Positions 3,062 through 20,671 of a stretch of 64,000 bases of DNA are shown here, piece by piece (positions within the stretch are counted from its first letter, which is position 1; each line of letters starts with the position of its first letter). The stretch spans positions 29,468 through 93,467 of the forward strand of contig JABLUY010000150.1 of assembly GCA_013306675.1 (NCBI GenBank). The letters are read 5' to 3'. The DNA comes from Thraustochytrium sp. TN22 (lineage: Eukaryota; Sar; Bigyra; Thraustochytrida; Thraustochytriidae). A program made the translations under genes and the position numbers. The notes below the pieces were generated by a model. It was not told where the DNA came from, searched no databases, and saw only the letters and a program-made list of their open reading frames with translations.

Positions 3062-3949
3062 GACACCGCTCAGCGCCGCTCTTGTATGTCTTCTCTTGGC
3101 GTCGCGTCGCGTGGCATGGTATGCAACTGGGGTGAGCAAGCGCCGCGCGGCGCAGCTCGATCCGTCGAAGCGAGAGTTTGCTGACCTCTGCCCCATCGCT
3201 GGAGCGAGTCGCAGTCTCGAGCGCATAATGCCTGTCAACGAACGGCACCGGCTGCGCGGTCCGTCTCGGTTGGCTGCATACAGCACCTCGGGCGGTTCAA
3301 TGCCGTCCAAAGATCGCTTGCTTGAAGCCACTCGTGGTCGCCAAAATGCGGCGACTCGAACCGAGACGAGGCCTCCTGCTGCCCCTTGCACGGTGCGTCA
3401 CGAGCTGGCTGCTGAGTACGAGTCGCCCAGAAAGCCTTGAAGAAGGCCAAGCACTGGCCGACGCGGACTCGGCGCTCTCTTTTCTCCTCCAAGTAGCAGG
3501 CGAGCGTTCGCAAGCAAGCAAGCAAGCAAGCAAGCCTGCCATCCAGCCAGGCGCTGACTTACGTGACGCCAGCAAGGACGCTGACTGCCGGCCAGCTGCG
3601 AGCAGGGGAGCAGCAAGCCTTGCTTGAGCGCTGACTCAGAAGTGCCATACTCCTCTGCGAGTCCCTGCTCCAGCCTTGAAAGACCTGGCTGGCGGGTGAG
3701 CCAAGCCGGCCAACTTGAAGCAGCCAGCTGCAAGCAGCACCGCGGAGGCGGTCTGACTTCTTGCAGGTCCGGGTCCCGTTGAATAACCTTGCTTGATTCA
3801 GCCAGCCTGATGTTCTCGTTGTCATGGCCGCGGCGCGACACGACGCAACGTTGCGCACCAAAAGCCCATACTCGCTCGCGTCGCGTCGCCCGTGAGCTCG
3901 CTCGCGCCGCGTCCGAGTCGCATCGCGGCGCGTCGCCCGTGAGCTAGCT

Positions 3950-3971
3950 CTAGCTAGAGGCCTCTAGCTAG
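3950..3971. repeat. 22-bp perfect palindrome built from TAGC units
   Basis: The sequence reads the same on both strands around a central AGGCCT (3958-3963) flanked by CTAGCTAG arms. Similar TAGCTAGC/AGGCCT clusters recur in other gaps (near 2090, 5343, 23150, 26150, 33470 and 45255) and none lies inside a gene. The function is unknown. Confidence 0.7.
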
Positions 3972-4030
3972 CTAGCTGGAGCCCGCCGCCCTCGCCCCTG
4001 GTCGGGCAGCCCGACCGCTCCGCCGAGTCC

Positions 4031-4120
4031 GAGTCGCCCGAGTCGCCCGAGTCGTCGCCCGAGTCGCCCGAGTCGCCCGAGTCGCCCGAGTCGCCCGAGT
4101 CGCCCGAGTCGCCCGAGTCG
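4031..4120. repeat. 9-bp tandem repeat upstream of the L15e gene
   Basis: About ten copies of GAGTCGCCC run head to tail, one of them 12 bp (an extra TCG). The array ends some 420 bp before the L15e start codon. The same GAGTC word occurs scattered just upstream (3905-3930). Confidence 0.9.
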
Positions 4121-4362
4121 CGGCGGCGCTGCTAACCCCGGGCCGGCTCGCCCGGCATCCGCCATCATGACTCGGAAGGCCACAGGCACTGCACGCGCGT
4201 CCGAGCCGGACGAGTCCCGCCCCTCCCTCCCGCCCGCCCGCGGCGCCCTCTCAGCTCCGAGTCAGCTGGCCGTCCGCCCGTATCCCCGCGCACACCGTTC
4301 TGGCGCACACTTACACGCGTTCGCGGGGCGGGTCCCCGTTCGCGGGCGCCGCACACGCGGGC

Positions 4363-4372
4363 AGGGTTAGGG
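4363..4372 (+). promoter_or_regulatory. telo-box-like motif (AGGGTTAGGG) upstream of L15e
   Basis: A decamer matching interstitial telomere-repeat sequence lies 165 bp before the L15e ATG. In plants the equivalent telo-box (AAACCCTAA) is a known promoter element of ribosomal-protein and translation-factor genes. Its role here is inferred only from position and resemblance. Confidence 0.3.
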
Positions 4373-4537
4373 TAGCGTTGCGCGGTCTGCGTGGAGGAGT
4401 GGCGGCGGCGGCGCTGAGTGGTTATTAGGGAGGGGGAAGCGGGGTTTGCTGGTGGCGGCAAGCGGAGCGGGGCAGAGCAGGCAGAGCAGAGAGGCGCGGG
4501 CAGAGCAGGAGCTGCGAGCGCGGTCGAGGTCGGCAAG

Positions 4538-5155
4538 ATGGGCGCGTACAAGTACTGCGAGGAGCTGTGGCGCAAGAAGCAGAGCGATGTGATGCGCTTC
4601 CTGCTGCGCATCCGCGCCTGGCAGTACCGCCACGAGTCGCGCATCAAGCGGCTGAGCCGGCCCACGCGCCCGGAGAAGGCGCACCGCCTGGGCTACAAGG
4701 CCAAGCAGGGCATCTCGGTCTTCCGCGTTGCCGTCCGCCGCGGCGGCCGCAAGCGCCCGGCGTCCAAGGGTATCGTCTACGGTAAGCCCAAGAACCACGG
4801 TATCAACCAGCTCAAGCCCACCCGCAACCTGCGCGCCATCGCTGAGGAGCGCGTCGGCCGCCGCTGCGGCAACCTTCGCGTGCTCAACTCGTACTGGGTG
4901 AACCATGACTCCACCTTCAAGTACTTTGAGGTCATCATGGTCGACCCCTCGCACCCGCGCATCCGCACGGACGCCCGCCTTCAGTGGATCTGCAACCCGG
5001 TGCACAAGCACCGCGAGCTCCGCGGCCTCACCTCGGCCGGCCGCGCCCACCGTGGCCTGCGCAAGCGCGGCCACCGCGCCAGCAACCTTATTGGCTCCTC
5101 GCGCCGCGCCAACTGGAAGAGCCGCAACACGCTCAAGCTCCAGCGCTACCGCTAA
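4538..5155 (+). CDS. RPL15: 60S ribosomal protein L15e (eL15)
   Basis: This encodes a structural protein of the cytosolic large ribosomal subunit. The 205-residue frame starts [20 protein letters not shown] and ends LKLQRYR, which is the full extent of the eukaryotic eL15 family (about 204 residues). It contains the conserved segments [37 protein letters not shown] and NPVHKHRE. The ATG was chosen because homology begins exactly there; the open frame upstream (to about 4418) is Gly/Ala-rich and unlike the family. There is no intron, which is noteworthy because ribosomal-protein genes are often intron-containing. The telo-box-like decamer and a 9-bp repeat lie upstream. Identification is essentially certain. 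Confidence 0.97.
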
Positions 5156-5748
5156 ATACTGCACTGTGCATCCCTTTCTTCTTCGTCTCCTTCTTCGTCT
5201 CCTTCTTCCTCTCCAGAAAGACCCCTTCATCTTCTTGGAGAGGACGTTGATGTTGGTTGTCTTGTCTTTGCAAGTTTACCAAGCTCACGGCATGGTTTCA
5301 CGAGACGATTGAGCATGGCTCCATCGCACGTCAACATTGCTCGAGTAGCTAGCTAGCTAGCTAGCCAGCTTCTCAGAGCGCATATGCGCCTGCGCACCTC
5401 ATTGTATTCCCGCATCGTGTTGCTCACGTGCTTCCTCCTCTTCAGGTGATGGTGACATGGGACGAGCATGCAACCCGAAGCATTTCCATCCCATCATCAA
5501 ACTTGAACTCCTTTCTTGGGCCTGTCGTGGTACTACACGTCGGAACAGGTACCCAGGCGCTCGCTTGTAGCTAACGTAGCTGCCACGCGCGGCGTAGCGC
5601 TTGACCCGCCCGCCACCGCCCCGTTTCGGCGCTCGTCTTGTGTGCCGTGCTATCTTTGTGCGACTCCTTCTGGTTGCGTCCCGCGGCCGAGACCGGGCCC
5701 GGCCGCGTCGGCAGACACGAGGCCGCGGCGAAAGAACGACACGACACG
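5156..5748. other. Intergenic region between L15e and the kinase-like gene
   Basis: A pyrimidine-rich CTTCTTC/CTCC stretch follows the L15e stop (5175-5215), probably its 3' UTR. A TAGC tetranucleotide run occupies 5343-5366. Nothing coding was recognised; the last 150 bases should hold the promoter of the downstream gene. Confidence 0.5.
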
Positions 5749-13718: not shown

Positions 13719-14589
13719 CTCCGCCGCTGCGCGCCGCGACTCGCGCGCCGCCGAGTCGGACTCCGCGTCTGCCGTGCCGCCGTCGATGAAGATGACCGCC
13801 GCCGCCGCCACAGCGCGCGCACACGTCCAGCAGTCGTGATCGCAGAGCGCCGACGCGTCGCCACGAGCAACGAGCGCCAACGAGCGCCAACGAGCGCCGC
13901 GCCGCTGGCACAGCGAGGCTTCGCGGCGGCCGTCGCGTCTTGGTGCGTCGCAACTTGTAAGTTATTGCAGTTTGGATTGCTCTGCGGACTGCGCTGCACT
14001 GGCATGGGCTGCTCTGTCGTTGAACCAGGATTTCCAGACGTGCCAATCTGAACAGCGCGCGAGGCGCCCGCCAGGCAGACTGGAATCGTCCCATCGCCCG
14101 GTGGCGCACGCGCGCCCGTGTCGTGCTACGCGTGCGATGTGATGTGATGCTGTGATGAGATGTGATGTGATGTGATGTAATGTGATGTGATGCGCAGCGG
14201 CACGAGCTCACAGACATACTCCACGTATGCGGCTCGAGCGTGCGGACTCAGCCGGTCCTCAAGCCCAAGCGTCTCTCTCTCTCTCCTCACGACGATCACG
14301 AACCTCTTCGTTGTCACGGGCCTCGCCGAGAGGCCGCTCTTTTCTTTGGGACACTCGTCGAAAAGCCTAGCCTAACCCCGTGCGATTGATCATGATTGCT
14401 CGCAGTGTCAGTGTGTGTATGGATGTGCGTGTGTGGTGATGGCTGCAGCCTGCGTACAGTGGCTCGCCTTCAAGTTGGTTGTCTCGCCGTCTCTCGTCCC
14501 TTGTCTGTCACGTCTCGTCGCGCCGCGCCACCCGCGCTGCGCTTCGTAGCGGCAGAGCAGGATCGCGCGGCGCGGCTTCACGCAGAGCG

Positions 14590-14621
<32 letters not shown>

Positions 14622-14680
14622 GGCGGCGCCTGCGTCTGCGGCTGCGCAGCGGCGCCCCCCCGCGGCTCGGCTTGTGCAGC
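13686..14680. other. 1-kb divergent promoter region
   Basis: This separates the divergent mitochondrial-protein gene (-) and the SulP transporter gene (+), so it should hold both promoters. It contains an ATGTG pentanucleotide repeat (14136-14192), a CTCTCT tract near 14272, and a GCG trinucleotide run (14589-14622) directly before the transporter. Open frames here are low complexity. Confidence 0.5.
14136..14192. repeat. ATGTG pentanucleotide microsatellite
   Basis: About ten imperfect GATGT/ATGTG units lie in the divergent promoter region. Confidence 0.85.
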
Positions 14681-17600
14681 ATGACGGGCAGCGGCGGCGG
14701 CGACGAGCAAGCTGGGGCAGGCGGCGCGCCCAACAGCGCGGGCAGCGCGGGCGGGCGCCGCGCGCACCGACGCGAGCGGTCGGTGAGCGGGTCCGAGCTG
14801 GAGGTGCTCGTGTCGCGCGCCCAGGGCGCGGAACAGGCGCTGGGCGCCGGCAATGGCGGCGGCGCGGGCGCCACGGACGCGAGCATGCAACCGGTTCTGG
14901 AGGAGGGCGCAGCGGACTTCGAGCAGCGGCGCGCGAGGTCCATGTCAGCGACGCTGGACCCGCGCCGCAGCGGCGGCATGGGAGGCGGCGGCAGCGGGTC
15001 GCGGCTAGCCAGGTTCGCGTCGTCGTCGGGGGACGTCAACGCCTTGGCCATGCTGCTGCGGCTGCGGCGGCCAGATCTGCGGCTGCGCTCGCCGAGCATG
15101 CGCGCCGGCATGACGACTGGCACAGCGCCGGGCGCGGCGCTCTCGCCGCTGAGTCCGGGCGCCAGCCCGGGCGCCAGCCCAACGCCAGAGCAGCTGCACG
15201 GGCCCATGTCCTCGTACGGGTCCACGGGCGCAGCCATGGACGAGGTGGACTCGGTGGCGCTGGGTAACTCGGCGTCTGTGGACACCTTTCCGGGAGCGCA
15301 CACGCCGCTGCTGCACCAGCAGCACCAGCAGCACCAACAATTTGCACGGCAGGGCGTGAGCGTTCAAAAGGTGATTGAGAGCCTCATTTACGGCGTGGTG
15401 AACTCGATCCTCACCATCCCGTGCATGTACGGCTATGCGGCCATCATTTTCCGTGACACGGCCTTCCAGGGCGACATCGCGGCGCTGTCCAAGCTGGTTC
15501 TGCTTTCGTCCATGGTGCATCAGGTCGTCTTCACGGTCTTCAGTTCGCTGTCGTTCTCGATTGGCCAGGTCCAGGACGCCGGCCTGCTCTTCCTCTCCAC
15601 GATCGCCACGGCCATCGCGCGGTCCGCGCGCACGGCAGACGCCGTCATCCCGACCACGCTGGTAGCGCTCTCGCTGGCCATGGCGCTGCTGGGCGTGGTG
15701 GTCTTTGCCATGGGCAAGCTGCGTCTCGCTAAGCTCGTCTCGTACCTGCCCATGCCCGTGGTGGGCGGCTACCTGGGTTTCATTGGCCTGTTCTGTCTCC
15801 TGGCCGGTATTGGGCTCAGCATTGGCGCTGACGTGTCTAGCGTGGGCGATGTGTCCAAGGCCTTCAACCTGGAGGCGGCCAAGTTGCTGACCCCGGCGCT
15901 TCTGGGCGGCGCGCTGCTGGCCGTGGCGGCGCGCAAGGCCAAGGCCTGGTACACGCTGCCGCTCTGTATCGTGGCCATGCCGCTGGCCTTTTATGCCACC
16001 CTGTTTGCGACCGGCATGTCGCTGGCCGACGCGCAGGAGGCCGGCTGGCTGTCCAAGCCGGACCCGGCGGCCTCCGTGGGGCCCTTTTGGACCGTCTGGG
16101 AGCTCTTCGATTTTGGCAAGGTCGAGTGGGCGCGCGTGCCGGAACAGGCTGTGGCTTGGATCAGCATGGTCTTCGTCGTCAGCTTCTCCTCCTGTCTCGA
16201 CGTGGTCGCCATCGAGTATGATCTTGGCGCGCCGCTCGACATTGACCACGAGCTATGCACCGTGGGCATCAGCAACATGGTCAGCGGCGTCGCGGGCGGC
16301 TACACGGGCTCGTACATCTTCAGCCAGACCATCTTCACCTTTCGCACCGGGACCAACTCGCGCCTGGTCGGCGCGGTCGTCATCGTCGCCGAGGCCGCAC
16401 TCTTCATGGCGCCCATCAACGTCATGGAGATCGTGCCGCTCTTCTTCTTTGCCTCCACGCTCATCTTCATCGCCTTCGACCTCATGATGGAGTGGCTCAT
16501 TGAGGTCTGGCCCAAGATCGCCTTCCTCGAGTACGCTGTGCTCATGTCCACCTTTCTGGTCATCTCCTTCACGGACGACCTCATCCTTGGCATCGCCGTC
16601 GGCATCGGGCTTTCCATCGTCAACTTCATCGTCGCCTACGCCTCCGTCACGCACATCCAGCGCACCTACCGCACGCACTCCAACGTCGTGCGCGACTTTG
16701 AGAGCCGTCGCAAGCTCAAGCGCCTGGCGCCCTGCGTCGCACGCCTCGATCTGCACGGTTACCTCTTCTTCGGCAGTTCCATGCAGGTCGTCAAGAAGCT
16801 GCAGATCCTCCTCAACGAGCCGATGGACGAGGCCAGCGCCGCCGCCGCCGGCGAGCAGCGCAATCAGCTCGAGTTCGACTCGGATGAGGACGCACACGCC
16901 ACGGGCGGGGGCGGCTCGCTCTGGGACCGCCTTGGCTGGATGGCAAGCCGTCTTAACCCGCTTGGCGGCGTCACCTCAGACGCCGATGCCGACGCCCACG
17001 CGCAGCGCACGCCTGAGTGGCTCGCGGTGGCGGGCGCTAGCAGCGCCACCGATGAGCCCGTCTCGCTTGAAGCCATGCGCACGCCGCACTTTGGTCTCAC
17101 GCGTCAACTCTCGCGTCAGACGTCGATGTCCGGCGACCACGACGAGATCGTCACCAACTCGTACCTGCGTTTCCTCGTGCTGGACTTTACGCGCGTCACC
17201 GGCATCGACGCTACGGCCGTGTCCACCGGACTCATGCGCGTCAAGCAGATGGCCGCCACGCACGGCCTGCGAATCGTATTCACCAGCATGCGCCCAGAGT
17301 TTGAGCGCCTTCTCGTGGCGAACCACATCGTCGTGCCGGGCGACCCGAACGATACATGCCTCGTCTACCACGAGGTCAGCGACGGCCTGGCGCGCATCGA
17401 AAGCGAGCTACTCGAGCTCGCCGGTGCCTCGCGCTCCGCTAGCGGCTCGGCCGTCTCGCTGTCCTCCATGCTGCCGCCGCCAACGCCGCGCTCGCCTATT
17501 TCAGGCCGGCGCACAATGCCCAGCATGCCCAACATTCCGTACGCCTTCAACCTTGACGGCACCCGCAACAAGGTCGTCACCTCGCTGCAGTCGCTCCCGG

Positions 17601-18163
17601 ACGCGTCCAGCACCATGTGGCTGCGACGCATCCTCGTCGATTTCTTCGGCTTCGACACCAACTTTGAGCTGGGCCTCAACGACGCTGACCTCGGCGAGTA
17701 CACGGAGCTCACGCACTTCTTCGGCCTCATGCGCCTGCGCGCTGGTGAGTTCGTTTTCCGCAGCGGCGACCTGGCGGACGCCATCTATATCGTGCTCGTC
17801 GGCGAGGTTTGCACCTTCGTGCCGCGCACCCAGGTCATGGAGCGCCTCGTCAACAAGCATGACCAGTACTGGCGCAGCCAGTTCAAGCCGGAGCCGCGCA
17901 TGGCCTTTATTCAGGGCGGAAAGCTCCTGCAGCGCGCGCAGTACGGCTCGATTTTCGGCGATATTCACTTTACGCTGGACGAGCGCCGCCAGTTCTCCGC
18001 AGTTGCCACCGAGGAGGCTGCCATCTTTGTCCTGCGTCGCCAGCGCCTGGTTGAGCTCGAGACGCGCAACCCAAAGCTCGCTGTCGGCCTCTACCGCTGC
18101 CTCAACAAATTCCTCGCTCTCACCGTCTCCGACCTACAGTCCTACAAGCAGTACACTCGCTGA
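14681..18163 (+). CDS. SulP-family anion transporter with STAS and cyclic-nucleotide-binding-like domains
   Basis: The product is 1160 residues. Residues 1-225 are disordered Gly/Ser/Ala-rich. A SulP transmembrane block follows (about 228-655), beginning IYGVVNSILTIPCMYGYAAI and containing many hydrophobic helices. A STAS region follows (about 690-910), split by a long charged insertion; its second half starts YLRFLVLDFTRVTGIDATAV. A cNMP-binding-like fold ends the protein (about 1005-1125; RAGEFVFRSGDLADAIYIVL). This order is known from fungal and protist vacuolar-type SulP proteins related to yeast YGR125W/Vsb1. The phosphate-binding cassette reads FGDIHFTLDERRQ instead of FGExAL..PR.A, so nucleotide binding is doubtful. 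The start is the first ATG after a GCG run. Substrate unknown (sulfate, another anion or basic amino acid). Confidence 0.9.
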   Translation: MTGSGGGDEQAGAGGAPNSAGSAGGRRAHRRERSVSGSELEVLVSRAQGAEQALGAGNGGGAGATDASMQPVLEEGAADFEQRRARSMSATLDPRRSGGMGGGGSGSRLARFASSSGDVNALAMLLRLRRPDLRLRSPSMRAGMTTGTAPGAALSPLSPGASPGASPTPEQLHGPMSSYGSTGAAMDEVDSVALGNSASVDTFPGAHTPLLHQQHQQHQQFARQGVSVQKVIESLIYGVVNSILTIPCMYGYAAIIFRDTAFQGDIAALSKLVLLSSMVHQVVFTVFSSLSFSIGQVQDAGLLFLSTIATAIARSARTADAVIPTTLVALSLAMALLGVVVFAMGKLRLAKLVSYLPMPVVGGYLGFIGLFCLLAGIGLSIGADVSSVGDVSKAFNLEAAKLLTPALLGGALLAVAARKAKAWYTLPLCIVAMPLAFYATLFATGMSLADAQEAGWLSKPDPAASVGPFWTVWELFDFGKVEWARVPEQAVAWISMVFVVSFSSCLDVVAIEYDLGAPLDIDHELCTVGISNMVSGVAGGYTGSYIFSQTIFTFRTGTNSRLVGAVVIVAEAALFMAPINVMEIVPLFFFASTLIFIAFDLMMEWLIEVWPKIAFLEYAVLMSTFLVISFTDDLILGIAVGIGLSIVNFIVAYASVTHIQRTYRTHSNVVRDFESRRKLKRLAPCVARLDLHGYLFFGSSMQVVKKLQILLNEPMDEASAAAAGEQRNQLEFDSDEDAHATGGGGSLWDRLGWMASRLNPLGGVTSDADADAHAQRTPEWLAVAGASSATDEPVSLEAMRTPHFGLTRQLSRQTSMSGDHDEIVTNSYLRFLVLDFTRVTGIDATAVSTGLMRVKQMAATHGLRIVFTSMRPEFERLLVANHIVVPGDPNDTCLVYHEVSDGLARIESELLELAGASRSASGSAVSLSSMLPPPTPRSPISGRRTMPSMPNIPYAFNLDGTRNKVVTSLQSLPDASSTMWLRRILVDFFGFDTNFELGLNDADLGEYTELTHFFGLMRLRAGEFVFRSGDLADAIYIVLVGEVCTFVPRTQVMERLVNKHDQYWRSQFKPEPRMAFIQGGKLLQRAQYGSIFGDIHFTLDERRQFSAVATEEAAIFVLRRQRLVELETRNPKLAVGLYRCLNKFLALTVSDLQSYKQYTR

Positions 18164-18281
18164 TCGATGTTCCCGCGGCCTCGGTTCTTGTCTATAGACC
18201 GCACAGGCTGGGCCCGCCTCTGCATAGCACAAAGAAGGCTCGCTGTTGACAAGGGACATGGGAGTGAAGTAGTTTATTCAT

Positions 18282-18735
18282 GTGCCCAGCGACGCCAGGG
18301 GCACGTTTTCCTTCGAGAGTAGGTTGGATGATCTCTGCTGATAATCAAACGTGTTCAGGCCCCAGCCGGCGGTTTTGGCATGCATTTTGTTGCCTCGGCG
18401 GTTCGTCGTCGTGGTCTACATCCTGTACGTCGAAGCCCGTCTGGAGCGCCATGTCTATCGCGACGCAGTAGCTGAGGACAACAAAGTCGTCCTTGGCCAG
18501 TTTTTTTGCGCTTGTCCCATTTGCATTGCACAGCAACGATCCGTGTCATGTTTCAGCGCTGAAGTGCCTCGCTTTCTTTCCCTCCTGGCTACTAATGATC
18601 CACGGCCAAGCCGTCTTGCTTGGGACGCCATCAGCGACGACGCGGGGCATCGCCATGCCAAGTCTCTGCGCTGCGTCGGGTTCTGGGTCACCACAAGCCT
18701 CTCGAGCAGCCGGCTCGCAACCTAAGTCACAACCA
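18282..18735 (-). pseudogene. decayed copy of the neighbouring trypsin-like gene
   Basis: The minus strand shows clear homology to the intact gene at 19157-20671. AMPRVVADGVPSKTAWPWII matches its ATPRVSNGSPSEVAYPWMV; TGFDVQDVDHDDE matches MGFDVQDEDLIVLNDDE; and, in another frame, HAKTAGWGLNT..SKENVPLA matches YAKLAGWGYTK..MEQDVPLA. Three lesions are visible: an in-frame TGA at 18546-18548, loss of about 38 codons that should include the TAAHC catalytic-His block, and a frameshift between the DVQD and AGWG segments (about 18400). Nothing of the C-terminal half remains. A functional gene is ruled out unless the assembly is wrong. Confidence 0.85.
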
Positions 18736-19156: not shown

Positions 19157-20671
19157 TCATGATTGAAGGATTGCGCAATAGTGGTTGAGAATGACACCGG
19201 TCCAGTTCTTCTTCTTGGTCGTCTTTGGCACCTTTGCGTTGTTGGGGAACTTGTGCAAACGGCACTCGCCGGGCTTATCTTCCTTGTCAGACGGCTTAAA
19301 GGAGAAGCCTACACAGGTAAACTCGACGAATAGGTACGAGAAACGGCACGCAATGTAGCACTCGGCCGCCGTGTAGACATTATCCATTCGCTCGTACTTG
19401 CTCTTGGTCAATCTCGCGTCCTCGGACCAGCACTTATCCGCAGCCGTGCTCTCGGCTGTCGGCGCACAATAGCTGGTGGCCACGGAAGACGCCTCGTTGG
19501 AGATGACCCAGGTGCAGCTGGAGGCGTACGGCTCGGTGCCACACTCGGTCTGGTTCAGCAGGACGCAAATGTCTGGGAAGACCAGGCCCGTGAGCGGCTT
19601 GGGGCCGCAGGTGCCCTCTTCCCATTCGCAGACGTGCTCCATGTCCTTTTTCTTGCACTGGGACCTGCTCAAAGTGGCACAGAGCGTCTCGCGCTGGGCG
19701 AGCGCAGATGCCTCGTCCGCCGCCTCCGTGTCGCTGCTGAATTTGGCCTGGGGCACGACATCCAAGATGAAGTCCTTGTAGGACCGCACGCGCGTGTAGA
19801 TGCCGTACGCGGGGTAGTCGCAGAAGAAGTAGCCGAAGGAGACGAGGCCGATCTGGACCGCGGTGCCGTTATCCTGCTCGAAGAAAAGCGGGCCTCCGTT
19901 GTCCCCGGCGCACAGGCTGGGCCCGCCGGTACAAATCATCGTGTCCAAAAGCATGAAGTGGAACAAGTACGAGACGTACTTGGAGCAAATGTCCTGTGGC
20001 GCCAGGGGCACGTCCTGCTCCATGAGTTTGTTCGGGGTCTTGCCGTCTCCGACCTTGGTGTAGCCCCAGCCGGCGAGCTTCGCGTACAGGCTGGCCTCCT
20101 CGGCGGTCTCGTCATCGTTCAGGACGATGAGGTCCTCGTCCTGCACGTCGAAGCCCATCTGCAGCTCCACGATTGCAATGTCATTTCCATTGGTGATGTC
20201 ATAGGTGATGTAGTCGGGGTGAGCGTAGACAACGTAGTCTCCCTCGCCAACTTCGATGCGCTGGCCGTCGTTCTTCTTGGACTTGTCGAGCGCTCCGAGT
20301 TGCAACGCCTTGAGCTCTGGGATCTCGCCGTCATTCACGACGCAGTGCGCCGCCGTGAGGATGAAGCGAGCATGAATGAGCGTGCCCGCGCAAAAGTGCT
20401 TGTTCTTTTTCGTCTGTAGGCTCACCATCCACGGATACGCGACCTCGCTCGGCGACCCATTCGAGACGCGCGGCGTTGCTAGCTCCGGTAGCGCCTCCTC
20501 CGTCTGCCTCGCCGCAACCACGTGGCGCGACAGGAGCTGCTCCGCGGCCAAGTCTCTGCGGCGCGCGGACAGGTCCCCCGTCTGCAGCCTTTCCAGCAGG
20601 CTGGCCTCCGCGCTCAAGGCTGCCAGGACGAGGAGCACGACTCGGACGGCAAGCACCATCTTGTCGGTCAT
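19157..20671 (-). CDS. secreted trypsin-fold (S1) protein with Ser-to-Asn active site and C-terminal PAN/Apple-like domain
   Basis: The product is 504 residues. A signal peptide (MTDKMVLAVRVVLLVLAALS) and propeptide precede the S1 domain, which begins PRVSNGSPSEVAYPWMVSLQ. Catalytic His (TAAHC, near 110) and Asp (NDIAIVEL, near 165) are present. The nucleophile position reads CAGDNGGPLFF instead of GDSGGP, so Ser195 is Asn; the codon is AAC and unambiguous. The protein is therefore expected to be proteolytically dead. Cys-rich linkers (about 330-420) lead to a PAN/Apple-like C-terminus (NVYTAAECYIACRFS..CVGFSF). Oomycete glucanase-inhibitor proteins are a precedent for secreted inactive trypsin homologues; a binding or inhibitor role is inference. 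A second ATG at 20659 is an alternative start. A broken paralogue lies just downstream. Confidence 0.88.
   Translation of the reverse strand: MTDKMVLAVRVVLLVLAALSAEASLLERLQTGDLSARRRDLAAEQLLSRHVVAARQTEEALPELATPRVSNGSPSEVAYPWMVSLQTKKNKHFCAGTLIHARFILTAAHCVVNDGEIPELKALQLGALDKSKKNDGQRIEVGEGDYVVYAHPDYITYDITNGNDIAIVELQMGFDVQDEDLIVLNDDETAEEASLYAKLAGWGYTKVGDGKTPNKLMEQDVPLAPQDICSKYVSYLFHFMLLDTMICTGGPSLCAGDNGGPLFFEQDNGTAVQIGLVSFGYFFCDYPAYGIYTRVRSYKDFILDVVPQAKFSSDTEAADEASALAQRETLCATLSRSQCKKKDMEHVCEWEEGTCGPKPLTGLVFPDICVLLNQTECGTEPYASSCTWVISNEASSVATSYCAPTAESTAADKCWSEDARLTKSKYERMDNVYTAAECYIACRFSYLFVEFTCVGFSFKPSDKEDKPGECRLHKFPNNAKVPKTTKKKNWTGVILNHYCAILQS

Follow-up and report, generated by a model that had tools for sequence, protein, structure and literature searches.

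A probably maintained and probably secreted trypsin homologue with asparagine at the nucleophile position in Thraustochytrium sp. TN22

A gene on the minus strand of a 64,000-nucleotide stretch of the Thraustochytrium sp. TN22 genome (hereafter the window) encodes a trypsin-family (S1) protein, P0001, that has lost the classical nucleophile within an intact, coding-like gene, asparagine standing at position 195 in its translation. On balance, we favor the reading that P0001 is a secreted S1 pseudoprotease which has been maintained and which binds through its cleft. Genome searches covered the 37.9-Mb assembly (453 contigs) that contains the window. Near a divergent frame of 2083 aa, this assembly carries a 3044-aa frame that matches the omega-3 polyunsaturated fatty acid synthase PfaA (2539.7 bits together with its neighbors in the frame), an arrangement associated with thraustochytrids and in keeping with such a source.

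The S1 domain, its active site and the tail

The P0001 coding frame (19157..20671, minus strand) is a single open frame of 504 aa followed by a stop. An earlier note on this DNA gave the same coordinates and left the strand unstated; the plus-strand reading was rejected, with five stops in that frame. GC at codon positions 1/2/3 is 0.56/0.42/0.83, resembling the two neighboring frames (0.65/0.49/0.85 and 0.60/0.46/0.86), as expected for a true coding frame, whereas the total GC of the downstream spacer is 0.55. Residues 1-23, which are hydrophobic (VLAVRVVLLVLAALSAEA; 20603..20671, minus), read in the translation as a probable signal peptide and are followed by a pro-region (residues 24-68; 20468..20602, minus) ending in Arg68. 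R68|VSNG aligns with R15|IVNG of bovine chymotrypsinogen, with Arg68 at the zymogen cleavage-site position.

The S1 (trypsin-fold) domain follows at residues 69-310 (19742..20467, minus). Pfam Trypsin (PF00089) matches residues 77-302 with an E value of 2.1e-36 and 126.2 bits, against a curated cut-off of 20.6, placing P0001 in the S1 family, and 542 distinct PDB sequences match it at E<=0.001; an NCBIfam search with P0001 returned nothing near its cut-offs. The best PDB match is bovine chymotrypsin (E 2.5e-27), whose Ser195 lies opposite N258. All three motifs read earlier, TAAHC, NDIAIV and AGDNGGPL, are present in the translation, and alignment to the genome's own S1 set identifies His109 (20345..20347, minus) as the catalytic His57 and Asp164 (20180..20182, minus) as Asp102, while Asn258 (AAC; 19898..19900, minus) occupies the position of nucleophile Ser195 in the alignments to both bovine chymotrypsin and that set. 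The numbers 57, 102 and 195 follow chymotrypsin. With S195 replaced by N258, at least one triad residue is substituted, one of the features that mark an S1 pseudoprotease or serine protease homologue (SPH). P0001 retains Gly193, Asp194, Ser214, Gly216, Gly226 and the activation Arg. Position 189 is Ser, as in chymotrypsin, making the pocket chymotrypsin-type (Ser189, Gly216, Gly226), and the cysteines for three S1 disulfides are kept, the last shifted by one position. The loss of the classical nucleophile from an otherwise well-kept S1 domain, as the earlier note described it, is thus borne out, with Asn at 195 and the rest of the active site retained.

Codon 195 is AAC in P0001 and AGC in its two nearest paralogues (on contigs C445 and C83), so that one transition separates them. 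The earlier note's "single Ser-to-Asn change" holds within the triad; it does not extend to the domain as a whole, in which 10 of 40 conserved columns differ (11 of 40 in the Ser-bearing sister). Asn258-Gly259 (19895-19900, minus) forms an Asn-Gly pair, a classical deamidation site; deamidation would yield Asp195, a state present in paralogues on contig C14.

Two modules make up the C-terminal tail. The first, a cysteine-rich module at residues 331-402 (19466..19681, minus), contains two C..L....C...C.W..C units and matches no Pfam family at its cut-off. The second, at residues 411-504 (19160..19441, minus), has six cysteines in PAN order (C414, C438, C442, C453, C470 and C499). The PAN/Apple-like tail described earlier accordingly finds its footing in this cysteine order and not in a Pfam match: at E<=10, no Pfam PAN/Apple model matched the entire protein, its 174-aa tail or the final 94 aa, and the tail as a profile query drew nothing from the PDB; profile support is weak. 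Against a profile of 12 PAN domains from the same genome, the last module reaches 12.3 bits, five of its six cysteines being in register, a score equalled by 1 of 1000 shuffles, and hhalign of the module against the PAN profile gives P 2.7e-4 and a probability of 41.6%. For this reference set, 12 loci were fetched and 10 used (L128 and L133 were omitted untested), with one domain each added from L017 and L011. On the same profile, the tail of the nearest paralogue, L009, reaches 5.0 bits, a value exceeded by 3 of 1000 shuffles. L009 lacks the third and fourth PAN-like cysteines together. These two are paired in Apple domains, and their joint loss would be expected if they pair in the same way here. 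The last module is therefore likely, although not proven, to be PAN-like. PAN_1 itself occurs elsewhere in the genome, an S1 paralogue on contig C330 being one carrier; 106 matches are listed, many of them within frames of 1000-4900 aa.

Plasma kallikrein and coagulation factor XI are among the 60 best of the 542 PDB matches to the S1 domain. Both are active enzymes in which Apple modules are joined to the S1 domain and placed before it. The order thus differs: factor XI has its S1 domain at residues 366-602, after the Apple modules, whereas the PAN/Apple-like module of P0001 comes after S1.

We propose that P0001 would have arisen within the organism's own S1 family, beside its Ser-bearing sister gene, and would be exported. 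Cleavage after Arg68 would allow Val69 to pair with Asp194 and the substrate cleft to form, and a protein ligand (a substrate-like loop, an inhibitor or a partner protease) would be bound in this cleft, uncut. The protein would thereby act as a receptor head or decoy, and its tail, cysteine-rich and PAN/Apple-like, would probably anchor it to a surface or a partner. The retention of the cleft-forming parts together with the loss of the acylating residue suits the holding of a substrate-like or inhibitor-like loop. Searches of the genome for candidate inhibitors by Kazal_2 (with no positive control) or serpin found none, a result that lends no support to a role as inhibitor decoy.

The Ser-bearing sister and the S1 family of the genome

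At least 45 genome matches are found with P0001 as query and at least 55 with Pfam Trypsin. The nearest paralogue, L009 on contig C445, is 46% identical over residues 28-500 and has GDSGG; its gene lies at 3080-5176 of that locus, on the minus strand. It shares the architecture of P0001 with both tail modules, and no other match is clearly related over the whole tail (the next matches have E values of 0.13 and 0.5). The two differ, apart from GDSGG, in that L009 is without C182 and Gly226, both present in P0001, and without two of the six PAN-like cysteines; having lost these, the sister may itself be of unusual specificity. An S1 tree that takes in those 32 of 57 rows having 195 or more residues, and from which columns 57 and 195 were omitted, joins P0001 to L009 (100/100) and then to L010 (99/98).

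This shared architecture, both tail modules included, underlies the main rival to our reading, that P0001, without catalysis of its own, serves the Ser-bearing paralogue on C445, or another S1 protease in the same cell, as cofactor or regulator, and that its cleft is not a decoy. There is an animal parallel, SPHs being called indispensable for prophenoloxidase activation in passages on Manduca sexta (PMC4676143). The genes for P0001 and for the C445 paralogue lie, however, on different contigs, and we regard a regulator role as unlikely.

Replacement of the nucleophile recurs among the 44 S1 stretches of the genome in which position 195 was read, some of which are fragments or exons: 31 have Ser and 13, P0001 included, do not (four Thr, four Glu, two Asp and one each of Ala, Asn and Ile). 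P0001 is the only one with Asn. The 44 leave out those of the 55 Trypsin matches that lie on contigs C437, C25 and C113, for which the profile search yielded no residue at 195. The S1 tree requires at least five changes, in either direction, between Ser and non-Ser at 195, and its Ile195 row, of unsure place, sits on a very long branch.

Contig C14 (L019-L024, at about 1-47 kb and 98-106 kb) holds an array of many S1 genes, both Ser-bearing and non-Ser (Thr195, Glu195, Asp195 and Ala195), with some copies nearly identical and some containing internal stops; His57 is lost in the one Thr195 copy where it is visible. Contig C58 (L025 and L026) has S1 domains within frames of 905-1129 aa in which additional sequence separates two matched stretches, one for the His/Asp half and one for the Ser half. 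One of these copies (L026, 8143-9999, truncated at the end of the locus) reads Arg at His57 and retains GDSGG.

Outside this genome, a bacterial and archaeal scan whose pattern permitted Asn at 195 gave at least 486 candidates encoding a relative; among the best 80, 78 have Ser195, none has Asn and two were left unclassified by the pattern used to read position 195. Four stretches of viral contigs matched a pattern, none of which encodes a relative, and one phage record holds a distant serine protease of 28.3% identity.

Maintenance, decay and a relic next door

The earlier note had preferred maintenance of P0001 to decay, and several signs uphold that preference: the Asn copy shows no acceleration relative to its Ser sister, its frame is open, and its GC3 is high beside a decayed copy. 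Of the 40 S1 columns with 80% or higher conservation across 21 Ser-bearing paralogues, P0001 retains 30 and L009 29, a similar retention which implies that the divergence belongs to the pair and not to the Asn copy. The end branches of the S1 tree are 0.48 for P0001 and 0.65 for L009. Tajima counts of unique changes, P0001 versus L009, are 20 versus 16, 15 versus 20 and 12 versus 21 with three outgroups, the corresponding chi-square values of 0.4, 0.7 and 2.5 being not significant. Over 495 codons, the NG86 comparison of the two gives dN 0.51 and dS 1.08, a pairwise value that is near saturation and averages both branches. When neutral substitutions were simulated at 0.02, 0.05, 0.10 and 0.14 per site, indels ignored, a 504-codon frame stayed open in 643, 111, 11 and 1 of 2000 trials, respectively. 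The earlier note had also held that Ser-bearing orthologues combined with relaxed selection in this copy alone would count against its reading. The nearest paralogue does have Ser; relaxation in P0001 is not seen. Together, these comparisons of sequence make it likely that P0001 is maintained by selection.

Beside the gene lies a decayed partial copy related to it (18177..18675, minus), which runs from the pro-region to GDNGG and was found as collinear blocks by local alignment. Its local score of 136 compares with no more than 67 in any of 122 control segments, and its blocks are collinear with the P0001 gene at a spacing of 1704-1890 bases. The first alignments gave 230 identities in 321 ungapped columns, a figure that includes a misplaced part (His57/Asp102), with mismatches distributed evenly among the codon positions (33, 27 and 31 of 107 each). 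That part was misplaced because the stretch around Asp102 is deleted in the relic; placement counts were therefore taken from a three-way block and the reading of codon 195 from the codon-195 end block. The relic ends just past the GDNGG motif, beside the stop codon of a sulfate-permease-like gene. That gene, at 14396-18163 of the window on the plus strand, has a Sulfate permease domain and a C-terminal cyclic-nucleotide-binding domain in one frame.

AAC lies opposite codon 195 in every optimal alignment of the relic under five scoring schemes (63, 60, 60, 3 and 6 alignments). L009 also aligns to the relic above background (score 100, against at most 77 in 122 controls), and the identities (gene-relic 167/260, L009-relic 154/262, gene-L009 171/274) are near a three-way split. 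Within the three-way block, sites at which the relic sides with the gene number 39, against 26 at which it sides with L009, placing the relic probably, but not certainly, closer to the P0001 gene. This agreement, with the AAC of the relic, makes it probable that the Asn is older than the split of gene and relic; Asn195 may thus predate their separation. Over 260 sites, third positions account for 13 of 26 gene-side and 13 of 36 relic-side changes (p=0.058 for the gene side; Fisher p=0.20), a trend that would fit constraint on the gene and is not significant.

The relic bears on the second rival, that P0001 is a recently killed gene heading for decay, its Asn without function. The single AGC-to-AAC transition would suffice for this. 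A related copy next door has indeed decayed, and 4 of the 55 Trypsin matches, all on C14, contain internal stops. Rates among the other non-Ser copies are mixed, and come from identity-filtered codons with no significance test: for copies with Glu, Asp or Thr at 195, NG86 dN/dS falls below 1 in 12 of 13 pairs, which counts towards maintenance, at 0.32 in the one Asp pair, 0.30-0.87 in six Thr195 pairs (over 42-69 codons) and 0.33-1.04 in six Glu pairs, five of which, at 0.59-1.04, would accord with decay. P0001 itself, however, has a full open frame, a GC3 of 0.83, no rate increase over its Ser sister, and its cysteines and pocket retained, and AAC is present in the heavily decayed copy too. 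Pure decay is thus not favored by conserved columns, codon-position GC, branch lengths or Tajima counts, and we consider it quite improbable.

Remaining alternatives, known systems and significance

The earlier note had pointed to oomycete glucanase-inhibitor proteins (GIPs) as a precedent. GIPs are described, in passages of the literature, as catalytically inactive trypsin homologues of stramenopiles with intact paralogues in the same genome (PMC3091767), much as P0001 is a putatively inactive homologue beside intact paralogues. In favor of a GIP-like inhibitor of a host or prey glycosidase, P0001 is an S1 homologue that is probably secreted, its triad is broken and the organism is probably a stramenopile, and GIPs are described as proteins of this sort (PMC3091767, PMC8364246). 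P0001, however, has an extra cysteine-rich tail, Ser195 is the only triad residue changed, and a plant host is not evident. According to a passage on Pseudoperonospora humuli, 27 glucanase inhibitors of that species are degenerate at the triad H57, D102 and S195 (PMC7432248), whereas P0001 has lost S195 alone, a comparison with GIPs as described. The link to oomycete GIPs is one of analogy only, and a GIP-like function strikes us as very unlikely.

Residual or altered catalysis, through deamidation at Asn195-Gly196 or by His57 and water alone, we rate lower still. GDNGG does contain the Asn-Gly pair of a classical deamidation site, and Asp195 and Glu195 are present in paralogues, but we know of no S1 enzyme with Asn, Asp or Glu as nucleophile. 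Least credible is a sequencing or assembly error in an active protease whose true codon is AGC, for although a single-base change in one assembly is concerned, the decayed neighbor independently shows AAC opposite codon 195.

The reading that we prefer, of a maintained pseudoprotease binding in its cleft, has parallels in animals. Among 125 SPH sequences of Tenebrio molitor, Ser195 is replaced by Asn in 11, and 102 have no regulatory region in the propeptide; of the remaining 23, clip domains or arrays are present in 21 (passages of PMC11172050). As those passages describe them, insect SPHs and P0001 are alike in having an S1 domain with a triad residue lost, Asn195 being among the recorded replacements, and differ in that P0001 is a protist protein with C-terminal cysteine-rich and PAN/Apple-like modules. 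A search of the open PMC literature, covering titles and abstract starts of part of the matching papers, found no S1 pseudoprotease of a thraustochytrid, and word look-ups in thraustochytrid or labyrinthulomycete papers (PMC3986615, PMC12221091 and PMC10101102) found no passage on S1 proteins of the organism concerned.

Work on S1 pseudoproteases is extensive in animals, and oomycetes are known to have them too. P0001 adds a protist example to an established class, that of secreted S1 homologues whose triad is broken. The Ser and Asn copies, with the same tail, offer a clean pair for experiments. If the interpretation is correct, a maintained pseudoprotease in a probably free-living thraustochytrid, beside Ser-bearing and decayed copies, would mean that the route from protease to binder is used outside immunity and infection. 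More tentatively, secreted S1 proteases may repeatedly have been converted into binding proteins in this lineage, and the Asn195 protein, PAN/Apple-like tail included, would then be one element of a recognition or adhesion repertoire. We offer this as a speculative possibility, which draws on the five or more separate Ser/non-Ser changes at 195 (Asn, Ala, Thr, Asp/Glu and Ile), on the arrangement of some of these copies in an array on one contig and on some dN/dS values near 0.3. If true, a free-living marine osmotroph would possess a protease-derived recognition or adhesion repertoire outside any host-pathogen setting.
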